Made by a program: the position numbers and the translations under genes | Source: Rhodocyclaceae bacterium | Lineage (GTDB): Bacteria > Pseudomonadota > Gammaproteobacteria > Burkholderiales > Rhodocyclaceae | DNA: 44,281 nucleotides | Assembly: GCA_020445745.1 (NCBI GenBank) | Contig: JAGRGB010000115.1 | Coordinates: forward strand, 1 to 44,281 | Reading direction: 5' to 3' | Part shown: one piece after another, positions 1-13,542 of the stretch | Numbering within the stretch: the first letter of the stretch is position 1 | Layout: each line of letters begins with the position of its first letter | Notes under the pieces: model-generated | Database searches by the model: none | Told to the model about the DNA's origin: nothing | Seen by the model: the letters and a program-made list of their open reading frames with translations, nothing else

Positions 1-117
1 CCAGCATGTTCATGGTGATCATCCTCGATATGCCCGCTCAAAAAATGAGCAGACGAGTGAATCACCCTGGTCAATTTTCAGCGCAAATCACCACCGAAAA
101 CTGGTCAATTTTCAGCG
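1..117 (-). mobile_element. Probable terminus of an IS21-family insertion sequence, with start of an istA-like gene running off the left edge
   Basis: Two copies of a 17-bp motif (CTGGTCAATTTTCAGCG) lie at 67-83 and 101-117, in direct orientation and 34 bp apart. Multiple terminal repeats of this 'GGTCAATTTT' type are typical of IS21-family ends. On the minus strand they are followed by a GAGG Shine-Dalgarno (around 23-26) and ATG codons at 22, 13 and 7 in one open frame (M-I-T-M-N-M-L), as expected for istA reading out of the window to the left. The rest of the element lies outside the window. The family assignment is from memory of IS21 ends. Confidence 0.42.
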
Positions 118-659
118 CCTAGCAACATGCAGTGAAACAGTGCGTGGTGGGGCATCCACCGCGCAAGTGACCCCGGCTGAAATCGCAGGCTGGGGACATT
201 CTCGAAAGTGCACTTGCGTGGGACCAGCCAGTAGCTCTGCTCGCCGATTGTGAACGGCACCCTGCAGAACCGCCGGGCCCGCCGTTCATCGACGAGCATC
301 ACATCCAGGGCGCGGATCAGCGCCAGTGGTGCAGCTTCGACCTCAGCCTCATCGAAGGTTGCCCCGCGGTCGAGTATTCGACGGAAGCGCTCAACCTGCG
401 CCTCGAACGCAGGGTCCCCCGCACGGTTGACGCGCCGATGACTTTCCCACTTGTTGAGATTCACGTGTCCGGCGAGGTGGCACAGACGTACGAGCGCCTC
501 ATCCCATCTCGAACCCGTCAGCAGTTCGGCAACTCCCCTCATAGCGACACTGTAGCAAGTGGCAATGACCTCGTCGTAGATCGGCAGCACATTTTCTCGC
601 GCGCGCCTCGGACTGATCGTGTCCCCGGGCGTGGTGTAAGAAGCGGTTCGGTAGGTCAT
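105..659 (-). CDS. Hypothetical protein of 184 aa, possibly a rearranged fragment
   Basis: This open frame starts at an ATG at 657-659 and stops inside the IS21-like repeat at 105-107, so its last codons are IS-derived. The body, from about residue 22 onward, has normal protein composition: alternating helices such as EVIATCYSVAMRGVAELL, and a basic Tyr/Trp-rich patch (EQSYWLVPRKCTFENVP). I recognise no domain. The first ~20 residues overlap the tail of the IS256 fragment in another frame, so the true N-terminus may have been lost when that element inserted. It could be the C-terminal part of a larger protein cut by IS256. The same frame stays open upstream to 1340, but that stretch runs antisense to or across IS256 and the next gene, and I do not treat it as coding. 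Confidence 0.4.
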   Translation of the reverse strand: MTYRTASYTTPGDTISPRRARENVLPIYDEVIATCYSVAMRGVAELLTGSRWDEALVRLCHLAGHVNLNKWESHRRVNRAGDPAFEAQVERFRRILDRGATFDEAEVEAAPLALIRALDVMLVDERRARRFCRVPFTIGEQSYWLVPRKCTFENVPSLRFQPGSLARWMPHHALFHCMLLGAEN

Positions 660-692
660 CGTCTCCGGTAAGTTTGGACGATTCGGTCTGCA

Positions 693-915
693 ACCGCTGG
701 GAGGGTGACAAGGGGTTGTCACCGAGCTCGGCGAGCGTTTCCAGCGACATGTACCTTCGACACAGAGCCCATTCGTCGTTCTGCTCGAGCAACGATGCCC
801 CGACCAGGCGATAGGTGGCCGCCTCGTTGGGGAAGATGCCGACCATGTCGGTGCGCCGTTTGACCTCGTCGTTGATGCGTTCGAGCGGGTTGGTGCTGTG
901 GATCTTGCTCCAGAA
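693..915 (-). pseudogene. C-terminal fragment of an IS256-family (Mutator-type) transposase
   Basis: The minus-strand frame reads WSKIHSTNPLERINDEVKRR, then TDMVGIFPNEAATYRLVGAS and LLEQNDEWALCRRYMSLETL. This is the highly conserved C-terminal signature of IS256-family transposases (IHSTNPLERxN, RRTDVVGIFPN, LLEQNDEW, RRYMxLE). Only about 75 residues remain of a protein that is normally near 400. The DDE catalytic core and N-terminus are absent, and upstream of about 915 the frame has no IS256 similarity I can see. The element is dead and marks a past insertion. The start of the similarity is placed by eye and may be off by several codons. Confidence 0.85.
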
Positions 916-1057
916 AGGCCGGGGCCGGGGGTTGTGAGGACCCACTTGCGGGTCATCGCGCCGCGACCGGACCAGCTTTTGCCGGGTAAAGGCGAGTCAG
1001 CTGACCAAGCCGCGGACGCTAGCGTTTGCGCGATCGCACCACCCATTGCGCTCACAA

Positions 1058-1423
1058 TCAGGCCGGCGTCTCGCTTAACTCGTGAACGACCTCGATGCTG
1101 GCCGCTTCCAGCGCCCGAAGTTCTACTTCGAGCAAGGCCAAGGCCGCGTGTTTCACCCGCGCTTCCGGTTCTTCTCCGGTGCTGCACCGGGAGCTTGCCA
1201 CGGCGCGTTCCTCGCGGAGATTGATGAGGGTGTGTCCCGATCTGAGGTGGATCTTGATTCGCACAAGCAGGCCAATCGCCCGATTCACAGCCGATCGCTC
1301 GCCTTCCGGCGCGCGGGCGATTTGCAATGCGCCGAGGCACTCGCGCAGTTGGTGGGCCTTGGCATTGATGAGTTCGATCAGGGCATCCAGAACCGACGCG
1401 TCGTTCTCGGTGTCGTTACGCAT
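1058..1423 (-). CDS. Small conserved protein of 121 aa, diverged copy of the gene upstream of trpG at 29.8 kb
   Basis: The protein starts MRNDTENDASVLDALIELIN and contains the block LRECLGALQIARAPEGERSA followed by VNRAIGLLVRIKIHLRS. It has exactly the same length as the protein at 29823-30188, and by hand alignment 84 of 121 residues are identical. It looks all-helical and soluble, with no membrane segment, signal peptide or cysteine motif. I do not recognise the family. As at the other locus, it lies divergently upstream of a trpG sequence at nearly the same distance (435 versus 439 bases), but here the trpG is broken. The preserved reading frame suggests the small gene is either still under selection or only recently orphaned. 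Confidence 0.65.
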   Translation of the reverse strand: MRNDTENDASVLDALIELINAKAHQLRECLGALQIARAPEGERSAVNRAIGLLVRIKIHLRSGHTLINLREERAVASSRCSTGEEPEARVKHAALALLEVELRALEAASIEVVHELSETPA

Positions 1424-1858
1424 GTTGCCCCCAGTATCCCCAGCATCGAATGAAGCACTTGAGCGGTAGGATGGTCATTTCGAAGTGAGGCATCGACGGT
1501 TGGACCTGTGAGCCGTCGGCTCTCGAGTCGGGCCGGCCACGCCCGTTGGAGACGGCGTGATCAAGCCTTGTGCCGCCGAGCAGTTGGCGCGATCGGGTCA
1601 ATCGAATTGAGGCCGCGAGCCGTGCACGTCTTCGATTCGCATAGTGACGTTGCGATAGGCTTGGGGGGATCCCCCTCTGCTGTCGGCCCGAGACCGGTGC
1701 GAGAGTCAGGATGTCTTGGGCATGCTCGGGCCGCGGTGGTAGGGCGAACCCCTCAGAGTTTAGCGGAATCTGAGCGGAAAAATTTGCGGGTACATTAGCC
1801 GGTATCAAATGCATTTTGTTCAGATAAAAATCATATACAACAATAGGATATTGCATAA

Positions 1859-2028
1859 ATTCTGCTGATGATCGACAACTACGATTCGTTCATCTACAGC
1901 CTAGTCCAGTACTTCGGCGAGCTGGGTGCGAAGGTAAAGGTGTTCCGCAACGACGAGCTCGGAATCGAGCAGATCGAATAGCTGAAGCCTGCCCAGCTGG
2001 TGGTTTTGCCGGGGCCCTGCTCCCACCG
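1859..2028 (+). pseudogene. trpG: Decayed 5' fragment of trpG (glutamine amidotransferase)
   Basis: The translation of 1868-2024 ([37 protein letters not shown], stop, LKPAQLVVLPGPC) matches the first ~55 residues of the intact TrpG at 30628. The codon at the true start position is ATT (1859-1861) instead of ATG, an in-frame TAG sits at 1979-1981, and similarity ends abruptly near 2025, just before the catalytic Cys region. The ACAATAGGAT leader is shared with the intact gene. The fragment cannot make an amidotransferase. Codon-level divergence from 30628 is substantial, so this is not a recent duplication. It may be an older one, or a copy brought in from a related genome. Confidence 0.85.
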
Positions 2029-2042
2029 ACGGCTTCCGTCGG
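2026..2042. repeat. Short perfect hairpin at the trpG fragment breakpoint
   Basis: CCGACGG (2026-2032), loop CTT, CCGTCGG (2036-2042) begins exactly where similarity to trpG ends. It may be the end of an inserted sequence or a terminator-like stem. No T-run follows it. Confidence 0.4.
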
Positions 2043-2479
2043 AGTTGCCGCCTGCGGCTCCGCGCACGCGCCCGCGGCTGGCCCGGTAAACAGGGGGCAG
2101 GGCTGGCCAGGCGGGCGTGGGACACGGCAGCGCGGGGAGGGAGCGCAGGCCAGGCGCTCCTCTGTCAAGCGACATCCAGATTTACGCATTAATGCGGCGT
2201 CCAGCGTCACCTGGCCTTGAACGCCGGTTAGTGGTTCCGGCGGGGCATGCTGGTCATGCCGCGGTCTCCTGGCTGACCGAATTATCGGGCCTTCTCACGA
2301 GAGCAGCATCCACCTGGCGCCGTGTTGAAATTTTCGGGGCCACCTCTCTCTGCCATGGCCTTGGGATCGCGTTCGGACATTGGTCGGGCGGCCGCGGGAA
2401 GCCGCCGCAACATTGCCACCGATCGGTTGTGCGACGCTAATCGGTGACCATTGCCGGGGCCTCGTGCTACCTATCGTTG
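2043..2479. other. Gene-poor stretch of rearranged DNA
   Basis: I see no convincing gene here. The open frames present have no recognisable motif. The one structured element is the 50-bp segment at 2351-2400, annotated separately, which repeats the start region of the DUF6398-like gene near 9.4 kb. Confidence 0.5.
2351..2400 (-). repeat. 50-bp copy of the 5' end of the DUF6398-like gene (second copy at 9408-9457)
   Basis: Bases 2351-2400 and 9408-9457 agree at 45 of 50 positions by hand alignment. On the minus strand the segment spans the upstream region, the ATG (2378-2380) and the first codons: MSERDPKAMAE here against MTERVPKAMAA there. After that the coding similarity stops. It is the remnant of a second gene of this family, or of a shared promoter/start cassette. 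Confidence 0.7.
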
Positions 2480-2800
2480 TCAGCCGCGTAGTCGGGAAAG
2501 GGCGGAGCGCTGAGCGGCCAGCCGCCGGCATCGAACGATCGGTGTACACACCCACACCTGCAGCACCGCCTGCCGGTTCGCCCGTTCGAACCCGCGCAGG
2601 ACCAGCTTGCCCTCGTGCACCGCGATCAGGTGCACACCGTACAGTTCGGCGATCGGCGCCATGGCGAGCGGCGGGACGATGCGGGCGCGCAACCCGGCGC
2701 CGGCCGAAGCTACGGTCAGGACTCCCTCGCAGACCGGGCCAGGGTCGCTATCCGGGGCGCGAATGCCGAGGTGGCGAGTTGATTGGACGCGGCAGTACAT
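2480..2800 (-). CDS. Small hypothetical protein (106 aa)
   Basis: The ATG at 2798-2800 opens MYCRVQSTRHLGI, and the C-terminal half contains MAPIAELYGVHLIAVHEGKL and a hydrophobic strand pattern (AVLQVWVC). Composition is protein-like and the frame runs unbroken to 2480, but I recognise no domain. It stands alone between rearranged segments. The C-terminal residues (a run of Arg, Ala and Leu) look like read-through into non-coding DNA, so the gene may have lost its natural end. It could be spurious in this GC-rich DNA. Confidence 0.4.
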   Translation of the reverse strand: MYCRVQSTRHLGIRAPDSDPGPVCEGVLTVASAGAGLRARIVPPLAMAPIAELYGVHLIAVHEGKLVLRGFERANRQAVLQVWVCTPIVRCRRLAAQRSALSRLRG

Positions 2801-3295
2801 GACCTGAGAACTATACATTTAAACAGTGCGTGGCGCTGCTCGGTCCGCGATCGCCGGCACGCTTGGCGCGTGCAGTTCAAAGGGATCCGAGCCGGAAACC
2901 GCATTGCAAGAGTGCTGCGGTGAGCGAGGTGCGCCCAATGATCGCTGTGGGTGCAGTTGTGTTTGGCAACTGAGTGCTCTATTTTCGGGGGTATCTGTGG
3001 GGAGATGGGACGGGCTGAGTTGGAGATGTCGCCTGTTGCAGGCTAGACAAGTGGAGTGGGGGTAACTTTGGGGGTAACTTGGACGTGTGGTTTGCAAGTT
3101 GTCCCGTAAATACTGATATTCTGGCCTGTATTGCAGTGTCCTTCGGCCACCACCAACACTTCCGGAGTGATCCGGGCAAGGCCGGGAAACCCAACAAATA
3201 TAACGGGTTCCCGACTTTTTGTTTCCGGTGTGTTCCGGAGAAGGCTGTTGCGTTCCGGGGGCAACAGGGGGCAAGATTTGGGGCAAGTCGTCCTC
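2801..3295. other. Non-coding stretch with integrase-arm-like direct repeats
   Basis: Two tandem pairs stand out: GGGGGTAACTTTGGGGGTAACTT at 3057-3079 (quoted as two copies of GGGGGTAACTT) and GGGGCAAGAT/TGGGGCAAGT near 3269-3288. An AT-rich island (CAACAAATATAACGGGTTCC) lies between them. Short G-rich direct repeats like these often flank attachment sites of integrative elements using DUF4102-type tyrosine integrases. No integrase gene remains. I read the segment as a remnant attachment region and do not claim a precise core site. Confidence 0.35.
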
Positions 3296-3607
3296 ATGTC
3301 TTTGGAGTTGCCGGTTCTCGAACTGGAGCATGGCGTTCTTCTGAAGGAACGCTCCGATCCGGCTCAGGGATTGGCGCTGCGCGCCTGGTTAAGCCATCAG
3401 GTGCTGCCTTCGTTCCACGGCCGCGTGCTGCCGATCGATACCTCCATCGCCCAGCGTTGTGCGCAACTGCACGTTCCAGACCCGCGTTCCGAACGGGACG
3501 CGCTTATCGCCGCAACTGCCTTGGTTCATGGCATGACGGTGGTCACGCGAAATGTTGCGGATTTCGAGCCGACTGGCGTCGCGCTGCACGATCCTTGGCC
3601 GAGGTAG
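3296..3607 (+). pseudogene. vapC: 5'-truncated VapC-type PIN-domain toxin
   Basis: From about 3296 the frame reads LPVLELEHGVLLKERSDPAQ and ends with ERDALIAATALVHGMTVVTR, NVADFEPTGVALHDPW. This is the C-terminal two thirds of a VapC ribonuclease. The second-shell acidic residues (E in LELEHG, D in ERDALIAAT, D in NVADF) are present. The N-terminal strand with the first catalytic Asp (the DTN motif) is gone, replaced by the repeat-rich segment ending near 3288. No VapB antitoxin gene is visible. It should be inactive. The apparent ATG at 3296 is a chance start inside the fragment. Confidence 0.8.
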
Positions 3608-3935
3608 GGGGTCGGCTCACGAAAGGGACAGAAACAGTACTTATGACAACGCACCGTTGACCGGCCACTTTTGCGCTGCTGCGCTGCAACTGGGCTCGTT
3701 CGGAAAATGCTTTTGGCATGAAAAGATGTCCGGCTGCTGCCGACCCATTCCAGCCGTCTAGATCCGCGATCAGCCAGTTACAAGTCTTTTGGCTTTCCTG
3801 CCGCTCAACTGCAACGGGAAGTCGATAGGTGGTCGGCCAAAATTGGCAGCAAATTCGGCCACACAAGCAGTGCGCCGCGATGCGAGACTTGCGAGCGCCG
3901 AACCGGACTTCCAAGCCTCATTCCGATAGCGGCGA
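3608..3935. other. Intergenic stretch between the vapC remnant and ietS
   Basis: No gene, strong hairpin or repeat is evident. GC content falls visibly here compared with the rest of the window, which fits acquired DNA. Confidence 0.4.
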
Positions 3936-6428
3936 TCAAGTTACGATGGCAATCTTCTGTGTGATCGCATTGTAAAGATCGACTTCAAGCTGGTCGGTAA
4001 TGAGAGATACCACCAAGCTGTACCGCACCGGCAGATCGTAGCGCTCTAGGGCTGGCCGTGTTCGCCACCAGCCAGTCGAAGGGTAGACTGCAATGAACCC
4101 TCGACTTGCGAGATCTGCCGCCGCTCCCTCCCATACGTCTTGATGGAGGGAGCCGCGATGCCGTTGGCGGTCGCCCAAGTACCAGTCGGGATCTTTCGGA
4201 TCCGCCGAGTCACCGTCATCCTCGCGTTTGGCCGCTGCATTAACGCGGGCAACGAAATCATCGGTTGATGCGTCCAGAGGGCGTTGCACGTCGAACCGAA
4301 GACGGTGCGAAGGGTAATGGAACTTCGAAGAAGTGCCACGAGCAGAGGGGTTGGGCTCGATAAAGTACGACAATGTGACTCGCATTTGCACGTTGGCGTC
4401 CTGCAGGGCTTCGAGTTCGTCTCGCGGCCACGGCAGGGCGTGCAGGTTCATGTGGCGAGTCACCACGCCGCGCCCCTTTTCCTTCACATAGGGGTGCACC
4501 AGGTCCTCCACTACGAGCGTGAGCGAATGGCCTGCGCTCCACAATGCTCGGTCCAAGTCCGGTACACCCCACCCGCAGTGCCGAATGAGATTCACGTAAT
4601 CCTGCTTGGCCGGCTTCTTGCCCACGGGCAAGAACATCTCGCGCATCACGGGAGTCCACTCGGCCGAATGGACGATCAGTGCCCGCACGGTCTCCGGGCG
4701 AAGCAATGGATAGGCCGCCATGAGCTGCGCAGCCATGCGGGCGCACATGGCCGATGCGGCGCTGGTTGCGTTAGTCGTGGTGAAGAGTCGGTCATGCGGG
4801 CGATGATGTGTGGTGAGGAGATTGAGGCTCGGCATTCCCGCCGCCCCAAAAGCGTCCTTGCCTACGTTGCCGCCCTCCAGGACCACGTCGGGCTTCAAGG
4901 GCCAAGCACTGTCCCACGTCCGTGAAGTCGTCGTGGATGGGCTCAGGCCGCCCCCCGCGGCGATCGCGCTGACGCCAACAATCTCGGTTTCAATCTTGTC
5001 CGTGTAGGCCCCGACGGTGATGGCGTTCCAGGACTGTCCGGGGTCGTGGATGAGATTGGTCGAAAGGCTTGCCGGATAGTCCATCCAGGCCGCATGTTCG
5101 CGCGTATTGCCAGCGGCGAGGACGACCAAACGAGGAAATGCCCCGGCGCCATCCGAATCGGCCGCCAATCGATCCACTGTCGCGGACCAGGATGATGGGC
5201 GACCGCGATCGCGGTAGTCCGAAGCGCTCACCGCCGACGTAAAGACCCGGCGCCGCTGCGGTGCGGCGACTTCGGGACGGCTGACGGCTTCCGCAAACAA
5301 ATAGGCGTGGTGCTTCGCATCCCCCTTGTTGGTCCCTTCGTCGGGCGTGAGCTTTACCGACTCCAGACGGTGTTCCGGTGCAACGGGGTGGGCAGAGGCG
5401 AGTACATCCGTCAAGTCCCCAAACGCCGCGAGACCGGCCAAGCCGGAGCCGTGATTGGCAACATCGTCTTTGCCCCAGGCCGGTTCCACCGTGTGCATGT
5501 CAGCGTCTGCGAGCAGAGGAGAAAGCAGCGGATGGCGGCGGTTAACGCCGGAGTCGAGGAGGCAGACGTGCGGTGTGTCGCTGTCCTCCACTGGGAATCG
5601 GGCATGCGCAAGAGTCGCATCCAGCCAATGCCGCTGTTCCTCCACCCCCATTCCGTCGAAGAACTCGGCCGTCTCCTTGGCAAACCGCAGTTCGGCCACA
5701 CAGTTCAGCATCATCACGGACTGTGCAAACTGCTTTTGGGACCCATGCATCAGCACGACTGTTCTCTCGGGGAAGTTTGCCTGCTGCTCACTGACGGTGC
5801 AGCCAGCCAAATTGGCGAGCCTATTGAAATCCTCCACGACGGCTTGCCGTTGTCCGCGCACGGGCAACCAGACTTCCCACCAGAAGGGCTGGTCCTTGTC
5901 GTCGGGCAACAGCTCGAGGTCATCGGTCCATAACGCTTGTAGCTCCGCCGAGCGGATCGAGGCGATGGTGTTGAGCAGTGCCTTGTGGTCACGGGGCTTG
6001 CCGTTCTTGTCCTTCTTCTCTTCTAGGTACTCGACGACGTACTTTTCGAAGCGCGACAACTCGCCATCGGGCACGAAAACGTTGGCGTAGGTGATCGGGC
6101 CTTCCGTGCAAACGCTGAGGAGCTCGATCTCCTTGCGCTCGTCAGCAAGGCTTTGGAACGCGAGTTCGACGTCGGGCTGACCTATGAATTGGATCTGCAG
6201 TCCAAGGCCGCTCTTGAGGTCGTAGTGCTGCTGAGCCTCTGCCGCAGCTTCAGCGATCGGCTTCAGTGCCTGGATTTGGGCTTGCAATGCCTGGCCGTGC
6301 TGCCGTCGTGGAAGGTCCGGGACGGCCTTCCCATCGCCGCGGCCAGGGCGATGTGCCGTGAAATCCTGTGGCTTGGATGTGTCGTGAAGAACGAGGTGCC
6401 GCCGCCGATCAGGTGCGTGATCCGCCAT
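3936..6428 (-). CDS. ietS: IetS-like subtilisin family (S8) serine protease of the IetAS pair
   Basis: This 830-residue protein has no signal peptide, so it probably acts in the cytoplasm. The S8 catalytic residues are visible: Asp292 in CLLDSGV, His326 in NHGSGLAG, Asn441 (oxyanion) in LAAGN, and Ser556 in NATSAASA, where the usual GTS is replaced by ATS. About 280 residues precede the protease domain and about 220 follow it, as in the IetS family. It lies directly downstream of the AAA+ gene, whose last 20 bases overlap its start. The ATG at 6426-6428 is preceded by only a weak Shine-Dalgarno, so translational coupling is likely. In known IetAS pairs the protease is thought to be the effector and the ATPase its controller; the role here is inferred by family and synteny. 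Confidence 0.88.
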   Translation of the reverse strand: MADHAPDRRRHLVLHDTSKPQDFTAHRPGRGDGKAVPDLPRRQHGQALQAQIQALKPIAEAAAEAQQHYDLKSGLGLQIQFIGQPDVELAFQSLADERKEIELLSVCTEGPITYANVFVPDGELSRFEKYVVEYLEEKKDKNGKPRDHKALLNTIASIRSAELQALWTDDLELLPDDKDQPFWWEVWLPVRGQRQAVVEDFNRLANLAGCTVSEQQANFPERTVVLMHGSQKQFAQSVMMLNCVAELRFAKETAEFFDGMGVEEQRHWLDATLAHARFPVEDSDTPHVCLLDSGVNRRHPLLSPLLADADMHTVEPAWGKDDVANHGSGLAGLAAFGDLTDVLASAHPVAPEHRLESVKLTPDEGTNKGDAKHHAYLFAEAVSRPEVAAPQRRRVFTSAVSASDYRDRGRPSSWSATVDRLAADSDGAGAFPRLVVLAAGNTREHAAWMDYPASLSTNLIHDPGQSWNAITVGAYTDKIETEIVGVSAIAAGGGLSPSTTTSRTWDSAWPLKPDVVLEGGNVGKDAFGAAGMPSLNLLTTHHRPHDRLFTTTNATSAASAMCARMAAQLMAAYPLLRPETVRALIVHSAEWTPVMREMFLPVGKKPAKQDYVNLIRHCGWGVPDLDRALWSAGHSLTLVVEDLVHPYVKEKGRGVVTRHMNLHALPWPRDELEALQDANVQMRVTLSYFIEPNPSARGTSSKFHYPSHRLRFDVQRPLDASTDDFVARVNAAAKREDDGDSADPKDPDWYLGDRQRHRGSLHQDVWEGAAADLASRGFIAVYPSTGWWRTRPALERYDLPVRYSLVVSLITDQLEVDLYNAITQKIAIVT

Positions 6429-7434
6429 CGCTGACTAGTTTGTTGTTCTGTTTATGTTTCTCGCTCAGCCGTCGCCGCTCCTCCAGCGCACGCCCGAGAG
6501 CATCTGAGCCAACCCCGGCTTCGTCGTGCATGACGGCTTCCTTGATGGCTTCATCGACGGCACGCCGAATCTCGGCGTAGCTCAGGCCATCTGCTCTGCT
6601 CGTGATCGCCTTTTTCGGGAACGGCCTAGGGGCGAAACTGCCCAGGCGCGCTCGGATCAACTCGAAGGCTTGTTCTGGCGTGGGCAGGTGATATTCGATG
6701 ACATCGTCGAAGCGGCGGAACAAGGCGTAGTCGAGGATCTCCGGGTGATTGGTGGCTGCAATGATCAGGCTGTTGGATTCATCATGCTCGATCATTTGGA
6801 GGAAGCTGTTTAGTACGCGGCGGATCTCGCCTACGTCGTTGGCCAGCCCGCGCTGGGAGCCAATCGCATCAAACTCGTCAAAGAAATACACACCGCGCAC
6901 TTCGGCGACGGCGTCGAATACCTGCCGCAGCTTGGCGGCCGTTTCGCCCATGAACTTCGTGATTAGCGCATCTAGGCGCACCAGAAAGAGCGGGATGCCG
7001 AGTTCTCCGGCGAGCACAGATGCAGTCATCGTTTTGCCCGTGCCCGGGGGCCCAACCAGCAGCAACTTACGCCGCGGAGACAGGCCGTGTTCGCGGATGC
7101 GAGCGAACATCCGCTGTTCCTTCATGATCCGCTGCAATTGCTTGTGAACCGACTCATCCAGCACCATGTCCGCGGTGCGGTTCTTCGGATAACTTACGAC
7201 GAGCAGATTGGCGAGTTCGCCCCGGGGGCGCGCCATCTGGACCAGCTTGCCCTTCTCTCCCTGCAAGGCGTGCGCCTTCGCTGCGTCGATCATGCCGCGC
7301 AGTTCTTGTGCTAGCTTGCCGTGCCCCGCCTTTGCCTCATGCGCTGCAACTTGCATGGCGACCGAGTAAAACTGCGTGTCGTCGCGGTTGATGTGGGACT
7401 TTACAAGCGCCTTAAGTTGATCTGCGCTGGCCAT
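6409..7434 (-). CDS. ietA: IetA-like AAA+ ATPase of the IetAS pair
   Basis: This is a single-domain AAA+ protein of 341 aa. Numbering from the ATG at 7432-7434: Walker A GPPGTGKT at about 128-135, Walker B FFDEFD with D186/E187, sensor-1 TN at 228-229, and an arginine finger in LFRRF near 240. I prefer this ATG because GGAAG lies 6 bp upstream and MASADQLKALVKSHI is the family's usual N-terminus. A TTG 39 bases upstream (7473) is in frame but has no spaced Shine-Dalgarno. The N-terminal ~90 residues form a helical domain also seen in IetA relatives. The gene is first in a two-gene operon with the S8 protease. The pair is known as a stability system on Agrobacterium Ti plasmids and as an anti-phage system; activity here is untested. 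Confidence 0.88.
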   Translation of the reverse strand: MASADQLKALVKSHINRDDTQFYSVAMQVAAHEAKAGHGKLAQELRGMIDAAKAHALQGEKGKLVQMARPRGELANLLVVSYPKNRTADMVLDESVHKQLQRIMKEQRMFARIREHGLSPRRKLLLVGPPGTGKTMTASVLAGELGIPLFLVRLDALITKFMGETAAKLRQVFDAVAEVRGVYFFDEFDAIGSQRGLANDVGEIRRVLNSFLQMIEHDESNSLIIAATNHPEILDYALFRRFDDVIEYHLPTPEQAFELIRARLGSFAPRPFPKKAITSRADGLSYAEIRRAVDEAIKEAVMHDEAGVGSDALGRALEERRRLSEKHKQNNKLVSDGGSRT

Positions 7435-7811
7435 CTCGTCTTCCGTGATTAGCTGTCTGCGGCTCTTTGCCAACTTCTAGACGCCATGACAGGAGATCTT
7501 AACAACAATGGTGGCATCTGGCTCGACGCCTCTCGTTAGACCGCTCAAGGAGCTTGCCCACTTGCCAACCTTCCTGAACGGCTGGCGCCGAAGTCGAGTC
7601 ACAGGCAGCTATCGGAGCACAGCGGACATGAGAATGGCTGGTCCGCAGGACCGTGCAACGGCAGCACATGGCCGTGGGGCGTCCCACGCCGTCGCTACGT
7701 GGCCGGCTGGTCTGATCTCAAACCTGTCGTCCGAGGGCGCCCACAAGGCCTTGCTACTACCGGCGGCAACTGTGGAGCCTCTCTCTTTCATGCTCGACGC
7801 GAACGCGAGCG
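7435..7811. other. Intergenic region upstream of ietA
   Basis: I find no convincing gene. This stretch must hold the ietAS promoter (reading left) and the end of the DUF7713-like transcript, but I cannot pick out a -35/-10 pair or a terminator hairpin with confidence. Confidence 0.4.
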
Positions 7812-8402
7812 TCATGGTTCGTCGGTCGGATCGAAGATCTGAAGCCTGAATTGCCAGCCCTCAAAGGTCATCAGCATGCGGCTGAACTGTTCCCATGAGA
7901 CCTCCCGGCCGTCAATCGTCAGCAGGGGGGTGTGTCCTGCAGCGGAATCGTCCCATTGGATTCGCCCCCGCACTGTCTGTTCGGCGATCTGCGGGTCGTG
8001 GTTTTCCCACGTAATGTGCTTGACGGAAAGCATTCGGCGAAGCTTATCGACCAGTCGCCCAAGGAGTCCAAGCAGGTCGTCCTCGGGATCGCCGGCGATC
8101 TCGCACTGGTAGCCGGACGGACTGCCATTAAGCAACTCGAACGCGTCGATCGTCACGATGTGGCCGAGAAGACGAGTCCGGAAGTGGAACTCGTGCGTCT
8201 CGCCGGCGCAGTCGACGAGCCTGACGGGTTCGATGCGGAAGTCCTCGAACGTGTCGTGCCCGGTCAGGCGGGCAACCTCGGCGTTGAAACATTGACCGCA
8301 AAGATCCCGGTAGCCTCCAACCGCGTCACCGCAGCTGATCACCTCGTGGCTAGGCACGCGCTCGCCACAGGCTTCGCAGCGAATCTTTCGGACTTTGCTC
8401 AT
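7812..8402 (-). CDS. DUF7713-like protein with N-terminal double-CxxC motif (196 aa)
   Basis: The likely start is the ATG at 8400-8402, which overlaps the stop of the preceding gene as ATGA and has AAGGCGG just upstream. The N-terminus has Cys9, Cys12, Cys35 and Cys38 (CEACGERV and LCGQCFN), a probable zinc knuckle. It is followed by a domain with HEFHFRTRLLGHIVTIDAFE and ends with DGREVSWEQFSRMLMTFEGW. I associate this arrangement with the uncharacterised family DUF7713, from memory. There is no signal peptide or membrane segment. It is the last gene of a three-gene coupled operon whose stoichiometric expression is implied by the overlaps. Its biochemical role is unknown; a metal-bound nucleic-acid or protein adaptor is only a guess. 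Confidence 0.75.
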   Translation of the reverse strand: MSKVRKIRCEACGERVPSHEVISCGDAVGGYRDLCGQCFNAEVARLTGHDTFEDFRIEPVRLVDCAGETHEFHFRTRLLGHIVTIDAFELLNGSPSGYQCEIAGDPEDDLLGLLGRLVDKLRRMLSVKHITWENHDPQIAEQTVRGRIQWDDSAAGHTPLLTIDGREVSWEQFSRMLMTFEGWQFRLQIFDPTDEP

Positions 8403-8926
8403 CGGGACCGCCTTCGCGGGGTCTTCGCTTTCGGCGCTGTGATCGAAATGAACCCAATGCAGTTCACCAAATTCCAGATGGCCAGCATCACGTGCTTGTC
8501 GGAGTCCTCGGGAGCGATCTGGCCCAGCCATTTCGACGTCTCCGCCATCACGTAGGCGGCCAGCTCCTGCTCGGGGTGGTCGGCGATGTATTGCTGCATC
8601 GAACGATGTCGAAGCCAGGCGCCAAGCACGTCTCCGAAGCGGGCGATGGCGACCGAGCGCTGCAGCTGGCGGTCTTGGTCGGCCTCGGTGATGAGCGGCC
8701 AGGTCGTCTTCGATGCCTTCATCGCCAGGAAGCAGACGAACAGCATGTCCAGTGCGAACTCGACTTTCGGCAGCGCCACGCCGAGGCGTGGCAGCACCAG
8801 CACGGAAGCGAGCAGGTTCGGCTGTGCATGGAACACCTCGTCGGCGAGTTGTTCCTTGCCCTTCATGTCCAGGGCCTGGGCGCTGCGGATGGCCGTGACC
8901 ATGGCGGCGCTCGAGATCCGGCTCAT
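8399..8926 (-). CDS. Uncharacterised protein (175 aa), middle gene of the DUF6398/DUF7713 operon
   Basis: The ATG at 8924-8926 overlaps the stop of the upstream gene (ATGA), and its own TGA overlaps the next start in the same way. The protein begins MSRISSAAMVTAIRSAQALD and is predominantly helical, with segments such as VEFALDMLFVCFLAMKASKT and LGAWLRHRSMQQYIADHPEQ. The first of these is hydrophobic, but I think it is a buried helix, not a confident membrane span. The basic C-terminus ends KAKTPRRRSR. I recognise no family. Its fixed position between two DUF genes suggests it works with them. Confidence 0.7.
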   Translation of the reverse strand: MSRISSAAMVTAIRSAQALDMKGKEQLADEVFHAQPNLLASVLVLPRLGVALPKVEFALDMLFVCFLAMKASKTTWPLITEADQDRQLQRSVAIARFGDVLGAWLRHRSMQQYIADHPEQELAAYVMAETSKWLGQIAPEDSDKHVMLAIWNLVNCIGFISITAPKAKTPRRRSR

Positions 8927-9437
8927 TCCGCGGGCTCCTGCGGCTCTGACGGAACGAAGGGGATCAGCCACTTTTCATAGGCCAGCCGCTGCAGTTCGGG
9001 CGGCGCGTCGCGAATGTCCATCATCAAGCCGTCGTCCTGCAGGATCCACACCGCCAGATTGTCTTCGAGCCGGCTGGGCAGCATCCATCGGTGGGAGAAC
9101 TGCCCCATCTCGAGCATGCCGCGGATCGCCTTCGACTTCTTCTGGCCGGTGCTCTCGGCGATCCCGAAGAACTCGTAGATGAGCTTCGGCTTGCAGCGGG
9201 GATCCGTCGAGGGGTCGTCGAGGAAGTTGACCCGGCCGACCGCATGTACCGCCGCGGCCGCCCAGACGTGCTCCCTGCCACTCGACAGCGGCGACGGGCG
9301 CTTGCGGGCGAGCGTGCCGACGACACGGTAATCAAGCGGCGATACTCTTCGTCGAGGTGCCGAGCGCAGAATGCGTCGGTGAGCGTCGTGACGGCAGCAA
9401 ACTTCGCTGCCATGGCCTTGGGAACACGTTCGGTCAT
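8923..9437 (-). pseudogene. DUF6398-like gene with an apparent 1-nt frameshift
   Basis: The start is the ATG at 9435-9437 (MTERVPKAMAAKFAAVTTLT, DAFCARHLDEEYRRL). Near 9325-9335 the family pattern jumps to another frame (VVGTLARKRPSPLSSGREHV and onward), which continues to the stop at 8923. The total of 515 bases is one short of 172 codons, consistent with a single-base deletion. The downstream part contains CKPKLIYEFFGIAESTGQKK, similar to a helix-turn-helix-like block I remember from DUF6398 proteins. The gene heads a three-gene operon with ATGA junctions. The shift may be a real inactivating mutation, a sequencing or assembly error, or less likely a programmed shift. I see no obvious slippery heptamer. 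Confidence 0.7.
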
Positions 9438-9661
9438 GGGTCGGGCGGCAGCGGGAAGGGGAATGCAGCATTGTCGTCTATCGCAAGCTCGACGAGCGCA
9501 TTTCGTGCCAGAGGCAGGCAACCGCCCGCCGCCAGTCATCGGGGACTCTGCCATGCCTTGGGGCGGCGCCACCCCCGATGCCGCTCAGTGATACCGGGAT
9601 CCGACGGCGACCGGTCTCCCGTGTCGCCGCCAGACATCGGTCGCGTCGTCGACGAAAGATC

Positions 9662-10876
9662 CTACAGGGCCCTGAATTCCCCGGTAACGACGACACGCAC
9701 CTTGACGCCGTCAAGCTGGTTCGGGATCGTGAATCCGGCCGGCCGTCGGGCGCCACGGACATAGACCTGGATCTCGGGATCTCCCTGATCGTCGAGGCTC
9801 AAGCCGGTGCCGACGACGTCGGGGTTCGCCAGCAGGGCATGCTCGTGCCTGCCGCGCACCTCTGCCGCCATGTCGAGGCCGGCCGCGACAGCCCCGCCCC
9901 TGGGTCCGTTACCCTTGCCGCCGCCACCTTTGCCGCCGCCACCACCACCTCCTCCTTTGCCGCCGCTCGTCGCGCCGCCATCGCCGCAGTCGGCGGTACA
10001 GCCGACCATGCCGACGTCGAAGGCCGCCAGCACCTTGTCGATCCGGTTCGCGATCGCGACGCCGCTGACCGATCCCGCGAACAGCAGGCCGACGGCCTGC
10101 GGAAGGGCGCCTGCGCCGGCGGGCTGGGTCGCCAGCAAGGATCCGGAATCGCCGGCCTTGATGAAGGCTCCCTTGTCGCCGCCGACCAGGATCTGATCTT
10201 CGAACGTCGCGCTCCCGAAGTCGTAGGTCACGGTGACGCTCACCCCGACGGCAGCGATCGACCCCGTCGTCAGACCCGTCGTGCGGCCGCTCTTCTGCAC
10301 CGCGAGGCCCACCAGATCCTGGAGATTCGTGAAGTCGACGGTGTCGTCCGACAGGCCGCCGATGTCGAGGATGCGGCCCTGGGGATCGATGCACCCGGCG
10401 CCATCGCAGGGGTCGATCCTGGCGATCGCGGCATCGACGGTGTTGATTCCACCGAAGGCGAGCGGAACGTAGTTGCTCAATTCGCCGACGACATAGGGGC
10501 TGTAGTCGGTACCTGCCGCGGAGCAGGAGTTTGCATCGCCGTTCTCGTCGAGCAGGCCCGGCTGGATGACCTTGTCGCCGATCGTCGCGGCATTCTCCAG
10601 CGCAAGGACGTGGTTGTTGCTCAGGACGAAGCTCTCCGCGCCGTCGGTGACCAGGGCACCCAGCGTTCCCGCATAGCAGTACGAACTTCCATTGACCACC
10701 TGGAACCGGATGTTGCTGCCGGAGACGCCCAGATAACTCGGCCGGATCTGTATCGACTGGTGTTCCGCCCCCTTGTCCGCGACGGCATGGCCTGACGTGC
10801 CGACCAGCGCCGCCGCCAAGACCGATACCGAAATGAAGGCACGGGTGCCACCCGGTGCACGATTACAGATTGCCAT
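9662..10876 (-). CDS. Secreted trypsin-fold serine protease-like protein
   Basis: This 404-residue protein starts at an ATG (10874-10876) with GAGGAG 9 bases upstream. A signal peptide (ISVSVLAAALVGTSGHAVA) ends near residue 33. A chymotrypsin-like triad can be placed at His89 (SNNHVLA), Asp148 (NTVDAAIA) and Ser244 (AGDSGSLL). Two pairs of cysteines (C157/C162 and C293/C297 approximately) may form disulfides. A Gly/Lys-rich linker at about 300-325 separates a short C-terminal domain (ALLANPDVVGTGLSLDDQGD, IQVYVRG) that recurs in this family. It resembles the bacterial Nal1-like serine peptidases. The substrate is unknown. The gene is monocistronic by its spacing. Confidence 0.78.
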   Translation of the reverse strand: MAICNRAPGGTRAFISVSVLAAALVGTSGHAVADKGAEHQSIQIRPSYLGVSGSNIRFQVVNGSSYCYAGTLGALVTDGAESFVLSNNHVLALENAATIGDKVIQPGLLDENGDANSCSAAGTDYSPYVVGELSNYVPLAFGGINTVDAAIARIDPCDGAGCIDPQGRILDIGGLSDDTVDFTNLQDLVGLAVQKSGRTTGLTTGSIAAVGVSVTVTYDFGSATFEDQILVGGDKGAFIKAGDSGSLLATQPAGAGALPQAVGLLFAGSVSGVAIANRIDKVLAAFDVGMVGCTADCGDGGATSGGKGGGGGGGGKGGGGKGNGPRGGAVAAGLDMAAEVRGRHEHALLANPDVVGTGLSLDDQGDPEIQVYVRGARRPAGFTIPNQLDGVKVRVVVTGEFRAL

Positions 10877-11335
10877 GTCGCGTCTCCTCGTAGCCGTGGG
10901 AAGGTGTCCGGACTTGCTTGCGTCCGCACGCCGCCATACGGCGAGAATCGTAAAATTGCATGGGTCGCGTCAAGCCGCGGCCAAAGCGCACCGTGACCGA
11001 TGCCCGGATTGCGTCGGGCCGCCCGCTCCCACGGCAAGCACACGTCTGCATGGCGCCCGTTGCCGGATGGATTTCGTTCGTTCCGGTGTCGGTTGATCAA
11101 GCACGACAACGCCGGGGCGGCCCCAGGCTCCAGGTGGCGACGGAGCAAAGGGGGGGGGGCGCCTCAGCGGAAGCTGCCGTCGCCGCCCGCCGCCCGGCAC
11201 GGGTGTTGCTCGCCGTGGCGGCGGCCGCCGTGGGTGGCACGCACGATGGCGTTCGGCAGCCGCGATCGGAACGTTGCGTGGTGGATGTCGCGCGATCGTT
11301 CGCCCACCTGCGCTGTCCGCGCGCACGGCCGCGCT
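10877..11335. other. Intergenic region between the deaminase and protease genes
   Basis: No gene is convincing. A homopolymeric run of ten G lies at 11150-11159. The AT-rich patch near 10945-10965 (CGAGAATCGTAAAATTGC) is a plausible site for the protease promoter on the minus strand. Confidence 0.4.
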
Positions 11336-11911
11336 TCAGTGCCTGTCGCATGGGCTGTAGATCACGCCTCCGGTGCGGGCATATTCCTCCAGTACCGATT
11401 TCGCGTCGGCGCGCATCACTTCGGTACGGACCTCGATCCCGCGCTCGGCCAGGGGGCGCGTCCAGTCTCTCGGTTTCGGACCTTCGTCGAATCCGATCGC
11501 GCGGGCATCGGCGTCGGTGGCACCGGAAACCACCCTTCTCAGGCCGGACCAGGGGATCGCGCCAAAGCACATCGCGCACGGCTCGACGCTGGTGACGATT
11601 TCGAGCCGTGGACAGTCGCTGCGACCCAGGTCGCGCCGCCCGAGCCTGCGCTGTGCGAAGGCGATCGCCACCATCTCGGCGTGCAGCATCGACAACTGCT
11701 CGCTGGTCACCAGATTGACACCGAGCGAGACTAGCGCTCCGGAATCGGACTCGAACACCGCCGCCGCAAACGGACCGCCGGTGCGTTCGTGCACGTTGCG
11801 GCGGGCCGCCTGTATGACGAAGGCCATGCGCGTCGCTTCGCCGCCTCCGCGCCAGGATTGCTCGAAGGGCGACATCCAGGATGGTAGCGAAAAGGTCAGT
11901 CGCTGATTCAT
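11336..11911 (-). CDS. Nucleoside/guanine deaminase family protein (cytidine deaminase-like fold)
   Basis: The likely start is the ATG at 11909-11911 (MNQRLTFSLPSWMSPFEQ), giving 191 aa. The zinc site is complete: His77 and catalytic Glu79 in LHAEM, then Cys112 and Cys115 in EPCAMC. The fold belongs to the CMP/dCMP deaminase superfamily. The C-terminal half (AIGFDEGPKPRDW) resembles guanine deaminase-like and other free nucleoside deaminases more than the tRNA adenosine deaminase TadA. It would hydrolyse an exocyclic amine of a purine or pyrimidine in the cytoplasm; the exact substrate is not readable. The gene stands alone and is divergent from the outer-membrane barrel gene. Confidence 0.82.
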   Translation of the reverse strand: MNQRLTFSLPSWMSPFEQSWRGGGEATRMAFVIQAARRNVHERTGGPFAAAVFESDSGALVSLGVNLVTSEQLSMLHAEMVAIAFAQRRLGRRDLGRSDCPRLEIVTSVEPCAMCFGAIPWSGLRRVVSGATDADARAIGFDEGPKPRDWTRPLAERGIEVRTEVMRADAKSVLEEYARTGGVIYSPCDRH

Positions 11912-12312
11912 GGGGATCACCCCGTCGAGGTGGTTCGCTTGTCCGGCCCTGTCGCCGGGGTCGTGCGTCCGGCGCTGCCGAGCCATTCCTCATTCCCGGA
12001 CCCGCCGTCCAGCGCGGCAATCGCACGATCACATGCGGTCGCGACCGGGCCTGCCCGCGCGGCAGTCTGCGGCAGTGTAGTGCGCCGCCGCCGCGGGATG
12101 CAAAGGCGCTCGCGAGCCACGGCAGCCGGCCGCGCCGATGTCTCCCGCTCGCGGGGATCCGCCGCCTGACGCATCGGCACGTCGCCGCCGGCTTGCCTTC
12201 CCCTGGATTAGTTGATAAATATCGTGACCGCGTCATGGCACCGAACGCGGTCGTGGCGCTGCGCATGTCGTCCGATCCGCCCCAGTTCAGCTCCCGACAG
12301 GAGGAAGCTCCC
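11912..12312. other. Divergent control region between the deaminase and outer-membrane barrel genes
   Basis: Mostly GC-rich with no gene. The AT-rich segment near 12205-12232 (TTAGTTGATAAATATCG) is the best place for a promoter of the rightward gene. A perfect AGGAGG lies at 12299-12304. Confidence 0.4.
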
Positions 12313-13542
12313 ATGCCTTTCGCGTCATCTGCGCCCACTTCCCGCCGCTGGCCAGTCGCCGTCGCGGTATCCCTCGCGGTCTTTGCCACCGGGGCCCACG
12401 CGGGAGACCTGCGGAATTTCATTTCCGACCTGTATGGGGGCGACGGCATCACGCTCGACCGTTTCGGGCCGTTCGCGCACGATGCCCACTTCACCGAGTC
12501 GTCGCTGGTGGCCCTGAACGGGCTGGGCGACGGCATCGCGTCGGGCCTGGGCTCGCTGGCCTTCAATTCCACGGTGTCGAGTTTCATCTACGACGTGCAG
12601 CAGGGCATCCCGGTGCGCAACACCGAGAGCCTCGGACCGCTGGTCGCCGAGCGCGCCAATACCATCGGCCAGGGCCGGTTCAACCTCGGCGTATCGTATA
12701 CCCGGGCCCGCTTCACCAAGTTCGAGGGCGACGATCTCGATTCGCTTTCCGTGCGGCTGCCGCACATCGACGTCAACAACGATGGCCACCTCGGGCCCCC
12801 GCCCGACCCCTTCGTGTTCGAGTTCGACGAGGTCCAGGTCGATATCGATGCCGAGGTGCGGCAGCAGATCCTGTCCTTCTACGCGAGCTACGGCATTCGC
12901 AGCAACTGGGACGTCGGGGTGATCGTGCCGATCGTCGAAACCAAGGTCGAGGCACGGGCGGTGGCCACCATCATCGACAACGGCGGTGGCGCGAATTTCC
13001 ATCGTTTCGGCGAAACGGGCGATGCCCCCACCGATTCGACCGGCGGTACCGCGACCGGTCTCGGTGACGCCGTCGTGCGCACCAAGTATGCCTTCGAAAA
13101 GGCCGGTGGCGGTGCGCCCGAGATGGCCGTGGTGGGCCAGATCACGATGCCGACGGGTGACGAGGACGACCTGCTCGGCACCGGCGACTGGGCAGGCATG
13201 GGAATGTTCGTGGCATCCCGCAAGTACGGATCGATCACGCCCCACGTCAATCTCGGCTACGAGCATTCCAGCGACTCGAAGCGCAGCAACCTGCGCTACC
13301 TGTTCGGATTCGATGCCCAGCCCGGTGGTTCGATGGACTTCACCGCGGCGGTCGATCTGCTCGGGCGCTACTATCCGGACGAGTCGGATGATCGCGACCA
13401 CCTCATCGACGTCGCGATCGGTGCCAAGTGGAACGCCTTCGGCACCGCGCCGCTCAGCGCCAACGTGATCCTGCCGCTCAATGACGACGAAGGTTTGCGC
13501 GCCAAGGTGATCTGGAGCGTCGGCATCGACTACACGTTCTGA
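12313..13542 (+). CDS. Outer-membrane beta-barrel protein, transporter-like (409 aa)
   Basis: The start at 12313 follows AGGAGG at 12299-12304. A signal peptide (WPVAVAVSLAVFATGAHAG) is cleaved near residue 30. The mature part alternates hydrophobic and polar residues in short strands (NLGVSYTRARF, WDVGVIVPIVETKVEARAV, GSITPHVNLGYEHSS) and ends in YTF. A terminal aromatic residue is the signal for BAM-dependent outer-membrane insertion. It resembles the MetA-pathway-of-phenol-degradation/transporter barrel group, but substrate is not evident. It is transcribed alone and faces the convergent kinase gene across a hairpin. Confidence 0.75.
   Translation: MPFASSAPTSRRWPVAVAVSLAVFATGAHAGDLRNFISDLYGGDGITLDRFGPFAHDAHFTESSLVALNGLGDGIASGLGSLAFNSTVSSFIYDVQQGIPVRNTESLGPLVAERANTIGQGRFNLGVSYTRARFTKFEGDDLDSLSVRLPHIDVNNDGHLGPPPDPFVFEFDEVQVDIDAEVRQQILSFYASYGIRSNWDVGVIVPIVETKVEARAVATIIDNGGGANFHRFGETGDAPTDSTGGTATGLGDAVVRTKYAFEKAGGGAPEMAVVGQITMPTGDEDDLLGTGDWAGMGMFVASRKYGSITPHVNLGYEHSSDSKRSNLRYLFGFDAQPGGSMDFTAAVDLLGRYYPDESDDRDHLIDVAIGAKWNAFGTAPLSANVILPLNDDEGLRAKVIWSVGIDYTF

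Follow-up and report, generated by a model that had tools for sequence, protein, structure and literature searches.

The window, a 44,281-nt stretch of Rhodocyclaceae DNA, carries three adjoining genes on its minus strand, in the order DUF6398, P175 and DUF7685-DUF7686-DUF7713 (9437-7812). The sequence-only reading had described a DUF6398-like gene, an unrecognised 175-aa gene and a DUF7713-like double-CxxC gene; the Pfam matches and the null searches agree with it, and the strand is the minus strand. It had also called the three genes ATGA-coupled. Both overlaps are present, at 8923-8926 (DUF6398/P175) and 8399-8402 (P175/DUF7713), but DUF6398 is not an intact ORF.

The DUF6398 gene (8923..9437, minus strand) is frameshifted ∼110 nt into the gene. 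Positions 2-23 of the Pfam profile (PF19935, curated cut-off 27.2 bits) were matched in one frame (17.5 bits, below the cut-off) and positions 24-106 in another (95.3 bits, above it), so that the cut-off is passed without one continuous reading frame. Since the match is split between two frames, the window copy is broken, and the first ATGA overlap therefore couples P175 to a frameshifted gene. The frame is open in relatives (L003, L005, L006, L007, L021 and others), and the intact relative L086 matches positions 2-106. The frameshift site shows no long homopolymer, but the break may be an assembly error rather than a real lesion.

The second gene (8399..8926, minus strand) is intact and encodes P175, a 175-aa orphan protein with known homologues and no family match. 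Searches with P175 returned nothing at E ≤ 1 in Pfam, NCBIfam, PADLOC or, by sequence, the PDB, and the best PHROGs match had an E of 0.28. Profile comparisons of P175 with UPF0149/SEC-C and with DUF6398 revealed no similarity. The third gene (7812..8402, minus strand), also intact, encodes a 196-aa protein in which DUF7685 (51.0 bits), DUF7686 (80.0 bits) and DUF7713 (92.1 bits) are matched above cut-off, in order and in one ORF. Alignments of 13 and 12 rows show its two CxxC pairs (C9, C12, C35 and C38) to be invariant. In PDB sequence searches the DUF6398 query gave nothing at E ≤ 1 and the DUF7713 protein four weak, unrelated matches (E 0.046-0.74). At E ≤ 1, neither P175 nor the DUF7713 protein nor the two pieces of DUF6398 matched a model of PADLOC-DB 2.0.0. 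The three Pfam families of the third protein and DUF6398 alike have no ascribed function; in the open literature searched, no paper named DUF6398, DUF7713, DUF7685 or DUF7686.

After a 338-nt gap, an IetA-type AAA ATPase gene (6409..7473; PADLOC IetA, 2e-77) and an IetS-type subtilase gene (3936..6428; PADLOC IetS, 4e-32; Pfam Peptidase_S8, 4e-49) follow on the minus strand, which bears out the IetAS pair announced downstream in the same orientation. We judged both genes to lie outside the module. The GC content was 0.57-0.66 in nine 1-kb bins of positions 1-9000 vs. 0.65-0.75 in 35 bins of 9001-44000. The lower GC of the proposed IS-rich island thus stands, but its IS-rich character comes down to one Mutator-family transposase fragment (502..945, minus strand; Pfam PF00872, 2.9e-15, profile positions 325-377 of 379). 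At E ≤ 0.001, Pfam matched none of three further ORFs at the left end of the window, neither a consensus sigma-70 promoter nor a terminator was found between 7300 and 9700, and an Rfam scan of positions 1-12000 gave no match. Directly 5′ of DUF6398, on the same strand, lies a 404-aa ORF with a Nal1_C match (9662-10876; 1.3e-9). Small, unnamed ORFs that resemble each other (MRND.../MRDD...) occur near two module copies, at ∼1061-1440 of the window (minus strand) and at 8549-8914 of L005; Pfam matched neither the L005 ORF nor the window ORF at 1061-1423.

Recurrence, Selection and Decay of the Gene Set

Fourteen P175 loci outside IS66 were examined after duplicates fetched under different ids had been merged. 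Partial or weak P175 matches (L010, L116, L023 of G100 and L041 of G719) were excluded, G719 also from the Fisher test, and stand-alone P175 genes (L013, L015 and L057) and IS66 copies (L012, L014/L115 and L033) were counted apart. The module recurs, with the same overlaps, in Rhodocyclaceae/Zoogloeaceae and in other Burkholderiales. DUF6398 lies directly 5′ of P175 in 11 of the 14 loci (the window and L051, both broken; L004, cut by a contig end; L003, L005, L006, L007, L048, L049, L050 and L052), and DUF7713 lies 3′ of P175 in nine (the window, L004, L005, L052, L008 and L011; L003 and L007, both interrupted; and L006, frameshifted). L048 showed no third gene before its contig end, and tblastn found none in L051 or L009. 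In L049 the third slot is taken by a UPF0149/SEC-C protein, of which L050 holds only the start before its contig end.

The DUF6398/P175 junction is a 4-nt ATGA overlap in nine of ten readable cases, the broken L051 being left out of the count; the exception, L050, has a 5-nt gap. The P175/DUF7713 junction is a 4-nt overlap in eight of nine cases, six with ATGA and two with GTGA (L006 and L007), and L052 has a gap. In L006 the DUF7713 frame breaks right after the GTGA, and in L007 a DUF7713 start is also possible one codon later. Over all genes, dN/dS against the window was 0.12-0.49 (13 of 14 window-relative pairs computable). P175 gave 0.22-0.49 (6/7 pairs computable), the C-part of DUF6398 0.12-0.26 (4/4 pairs) and DUF7713 0.15-0.23 (3/3 pairs), indicating purifying selection on the module genes. 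Because order and overlaps recur and dN/dS is low, the arrangement is above chance.

Among 199 family genomes, DUF6398 was found in 13 and DUF7713 in eight. Seven of the eight P175 genomes also have DUF6398 (Fisher p 6e-9), and five also have DUF7713 (p 1e-6), both values being uncorrected for relatedness. The HMM missed a broken DUF6398 gene next to P175 in G713, a genome whose DUF7713 gene is on another contig. P175 itself was found in nine of the 199 family genomes (one weak), in four of 300 order genomes (the window's own, G140, one distant and one weak) and in one of 321 class genomes, the window's own. The genome-contig scan gave eight P175 loci, and six plasmid records carried the gene. 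Viral contigs yielded a single P175 locus, an IS66 copy, and no DUF7713 or DUF6398; among 50,697 phage records, none matched P175, DUF6398 or the DUF7713 protein.

DUF6398-P175 is the usual core of the module. The conserved gene order and the overlaps support an operon. The co-translation in fixed proportion that had been proposed is weakened in the window, because DUF6398 is frameshifted there.

The third slot is variable. The UPF0149/SEC-C protein serves as an alternative third gene of the DUF6398-P175 operon and has a cysteine-rich tail, but its profile resembles neither P175 nor DUF7713. SEC-C is known as the metal-binding tail of SecA, and both third-slot proteins carry cysteine motifs of a metal-binding kind. 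The open literature searched held no paper combining UPF0149 with phage and defense, or UPF0149 with the SEC-C motif. Parts of the module also pair in the absence of P175: L084 has UPF0149/SEC-C after DUF6398, beside an ORF that matches DNA methylase and RhuM; L090 has UPF0149/SEC-C before DUF7713, adjoining AbiEi/AbiEii; and on a Nostoc plasmid DUF6398 is placed after an AIPR gene. From such pairings it follows that module parts shuffle.

Visible damage affects six of the 14 loci. DUF6398 is broken in the window and L051, DUF7713 is interrupted beside transposase genes in L003 and L007 and damaged at its N-terminus in L006, and P175 is affected in L009; L004, L048 and L050 could not be fully judged because contig ends cut them. 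This pattern fits an accessory module under intermittent selection.

A Promoter/Operator-Like Element 5′ of DUF6398

DUF6398 genes share an upstream element, TTGG-N10-CCRATC followed by GAMAATG. It was evaluated at 16 DUF6398 loci by leave-one-out with a model built from six hand-picked sites and 500 shuffles. The element outscored all 500 shuffles in ten of the 16 loci, where 24-31 nt separate the end of the site from the start. The window copy (9467..9498, minus strand) is weak, its score being reached by 8 of 500 shuffles, as compared with 4/500 in L052 and 58/500 in L051; three of the 16 loci (L084, L055 and L056) gave no signal. By eye, GATTGG and CCAATC/CCGATC are the arms of an inverted repeat in L086, L003 and L005. 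The element is also found 5′ of DUF6398 genes with no P175 nearby (L085, L086 and L087) and was not seen, by eye, at P175-first or DUF7713-first loci, and it therefore belongs with DUF6398. DUF6398 is predicted, from inspection of its sequence by eye, to bind DNA, and it may autoregulate via this candidate element.

A pattern search of six genomes gave six one-mismatch matches in the window's genome, where the reversed control pattern gave none. One of them (2411-2426) precedes a decayed DUF6398 start. This second copy of the promoter element and first codons (2298..2436, minus strand) was recognized by the pattern match, by alignment (local score of 106 against the intact 5′ end, maximum 57 in 300 shuffles) and as a 55-nt direct repeat of 89% identity, 7057 nt from the intact copy. 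The relic lies downstream of IetS on the same strand. IetAS is therefore flanked by the module on one side and by the relic of a second module (2436-2298) on the other. With DUF6398 frameshifted and the second copy reduced to its 5′ end, the window copy appears to be decaying.

Mobile Contexts and the IS66 Link

The sequence-only reading had suggested a mobile module, and plasmid locations, tRNA-Ser-bounded homology, conjugative-element markers and a passenger relative in IS66 all bear this out. P175 loci L011, L013 and L015 are on plasmids. Between L049 and L050, which belong to different genera, a 2021-nt stretch that starts with the first base of tRNA-Ser and extends to the contig end of L050 is 95.7% identical, and nothing matches before the tRNA. 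The module genes are the first after tRNA-Ser in both, and in L049 an integrase and a serine recombinase lie downstream; no att repeat of tRNA-Ser was demonstrated downstream in L049/L094, and G668, a draft, is 85% complete. AcaB-family and DUF3158 genes, which are markers of conjugative elements, are found 6-8 kb away from the copy in G647 (L007/L047), and a topoisomerase recognized by eye is near that copy. The set was thus found again elsewhere, plasmid and mobile contexts included, and is not scattered in housekeeping surroundings without a link to mobile DNA, though some copies adjoin ordinary genes, as the L005/L046 copy does (a trpG-like ORF, by eye, and three tRNA genes).

A P175 homologue is the fourth gene of a complete 3117-nt IS66 element with 26-nt identical terminal repeats (L014 5429-8545 and L115). 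The segment is identical on two Variovorax replicons, with an 8-nt flanking duplication in one copy (L014). The IS66-borne protein is 34.8% identical to the window P175, and its gene overlaps the transposase gene by 4 nt. Two further IS66 copies carry P175-related genes (L033, with a stop near the gene end, and L012). The three IS66 rows cluster in the P175 tree with 93/94 support, just under the star limit of the program, and the placement of the long rows is unsure. A gene behind the IS66 transposase in L019 was ruled out as a P175 homologue at 12% identity.

P175 with an IS66 transposase between terminal repeats was found in L014/L115. No IS66 transposase matched in operon loci L034-L058 (a run made without the window, L006, L008, L009 and L011), and the window ORFs scanned include no IS66 protein. 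In contrast to the IS66 copies, P175 is tied at the operon loci to DUF6398 and a third gene.

Defense Neighbors and Possible Functions

The neighbor set comprised 132 proteins within ∼8 kb at the 14 loci (176 kb), 30 module proteins having been removed, and the control set likewise 132 proteins, out of 209 called, which came from 11 of the 20 control loci fetched (139 kb); in both sets the genes were called by a simple hexamer script. At E ≤ 1e-8, 146 PADLOC model families matched among the neighbors vs. eight among the controls, where the matches were to PDC-S48 (best 2e-43), DEDDh, mad1, mad2, mad3, PDC-S33 and AriA. PADLOC models are redundant and matches within one system are not independent, so loci were counted. 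At E ≤ 1e-50 the count was 3 of 14 loci vs. 0 of 11 controls, which is not significant (one-sided Fisher ∼0.16, by hand). The strong systems that could be placed are IetAS in the window, a Pycsar-type cluster in L008 (PycC, E1-E2 and JAB by PADLOC, placed there by Pfam, with CapP also at L008) and DarTG with PDC-S18 in L051. A mad6 match among the neighbors (6.8e-52) is tied to no particular locus. When 20 neighbors were scanned singly, 13 had no match at E ≤ 1e-8. A DpdF match at L047 was discounted, the protein being a topoisomerase III by eye.

Pfam identified three further proteins at L004/L058 (EAD8-TIR-NACHT, EAD8-CHAT and a reverse transcriptase); the locus was left out of the defense count because the controls had no Pfam scan. 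The proposed defense link thus keeps its defense neighbors at three of 14 loci, plus TIR-NACHT/CHAT proteins at a fourth, but the enrichment by locus is not significant, and the link between module and defense genes is suggestive only. Within L008, the segment at 8569-13256, ∼4 kb from P175-DUF7713, contains a cyclase, ThiF/E1-E2, a JAB-like ORF (by eye) and a cNMP-binding and CAP12/Pycsar TIR effector. In L004 (1788-10786), EAD8-TIR-NACHT-FGE and EAD8-CHAT proteins surround the reverse transcriptase and adjoin the trio, possibly a diversity-generating arrangement.

IetAS is an anti-phage system. The window pair is an AAA ATPase and an S8 protease that score below the NCBIfam equivalog cut-offs; as IetA/IetS-type neighbors downstream of the module on the same strand they are genuine, but DUF6398, P175 and DUF7713 are not parts of IetAS. 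No IetA or IetS match was found at the other P175 loci searched. The IetA query otherwise matched only a Cdc48-type ATPase, at the DUF7713-only locus L018. The better matches of the IetS model in the module genomes G668 and G647 are on other contigs, and this model also matched in 5 of 14 control genomes. A specific IetAS link is therefore not supported, the adjacency being seen in this window only, and IetAS is most likely an independent neighbor in the same island.

We are dealing with a real mobile operon of which we found no description in the literature searched. Our tentative reading is that it is a mobile accessory operon, plausibly for defense or inter-element conflict, in which DUF6398-P175 forms the core and the cysteine-rich third protein is exchangeable; defense or such conflict is the likeliest single guess at the function of the module. 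In such an operon the three genes would be co-transcribed, DUF6398 would bind the element 5′ of its own gene and so regulate the operon, P175 might act as an adaptor or effector together with the presumed metal-binding third protein, and the product would serve defense or mobile-element conflict and not housekeeping. A stronger form, in which DUF6398-P175 and a swappable metal-binding partner constitute an undescribed autoregulated system of defense or inter-element conflict, and IS66 acquired its P175 subunit from that family or gave it to it, is doubtful.

Alternatively, P175 and its partners may serve the element that carries them, in transposition control or stability, and the proximity to defense genes would reflect shared islands. 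The P175 homologue inside a complete IS66, overlapping the transposase, is what such a passenger would look like, and so are the related genes of L033 and L012 and the place of the module genes directly after tRNA-Ser in L049/L050. A published account describes a multi-ORF structure as typical for IS21 and IS66 and regards it as highly probable that, in multi-ORF IS elements, the extra ORFs have a role in controlling transposition (PMC3281130). However, the operon loci L034-L058 lack an IS66 transposase match and the operon P175 is under purifying selection, and we consider this explanation unlikely. A horizontally spread stress or protein-quality operon that uses SEC-C/UPF0149-type metal-binding proteins would account for UPF0149/SEC-C in third place in L049 and L050, after DUF6398 in L084 and before DUF7713 in L090, but the patchy distribution of P175 (9/199 family genomes, one of them weak), the frequent damage and the mobile and defense neighbors make it improbable. 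Small overlapping genes, a mobile context and an operator-like element also recall a toxin-antitoxin (addiction) module, and such genes occur nearby (AbiE at L090, a DUF7713 locus without P175; DarTG at L051; HigA/RelE-type at L013). However, no toxin-antitoxin family matched the module proteins, DUF6398 is broken with P175 intact in the window and L051, and DUF7713 is broken with DUF6398 and P175 intact in L003, L006 and L007. These single-gene losses disfavor a simple pair in which the only antitoxin is DUF6398 or DUF7713; a variant with P175 as the antitoxin may be envisaged, and addiction in general strikes us as very unlikely.

Under the preferred reading of a mobile accessory operon, three families with no described function come together in one operon whose core is defined and whose third slot varies; it has a candidate operator, and natural copies with loss of function exist. 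If its role is in defense, the operon would add a system none of whose proteins is matched by a PADLOC 2.0.0 model. The IS66 link provides an example in which both a transposon and a mobile operon are served by one protein family.

Some minor observations concern DUF7713 genes elsewhere. In L090, a 114-aa ORF (8070-8414) follows DUF7713, behind AbiE and UPF0149/SEC-C, and is possibly an extra module part. DUF7713 lies directly behind a phage-type integrase on a Diaphorobacter plasmid (L019 6271-8588) and in a Rhodocyclaceae genome (L093 1480-3794), and the DNA 5′ of the DUF7713 gene is near-identical at these two loci.
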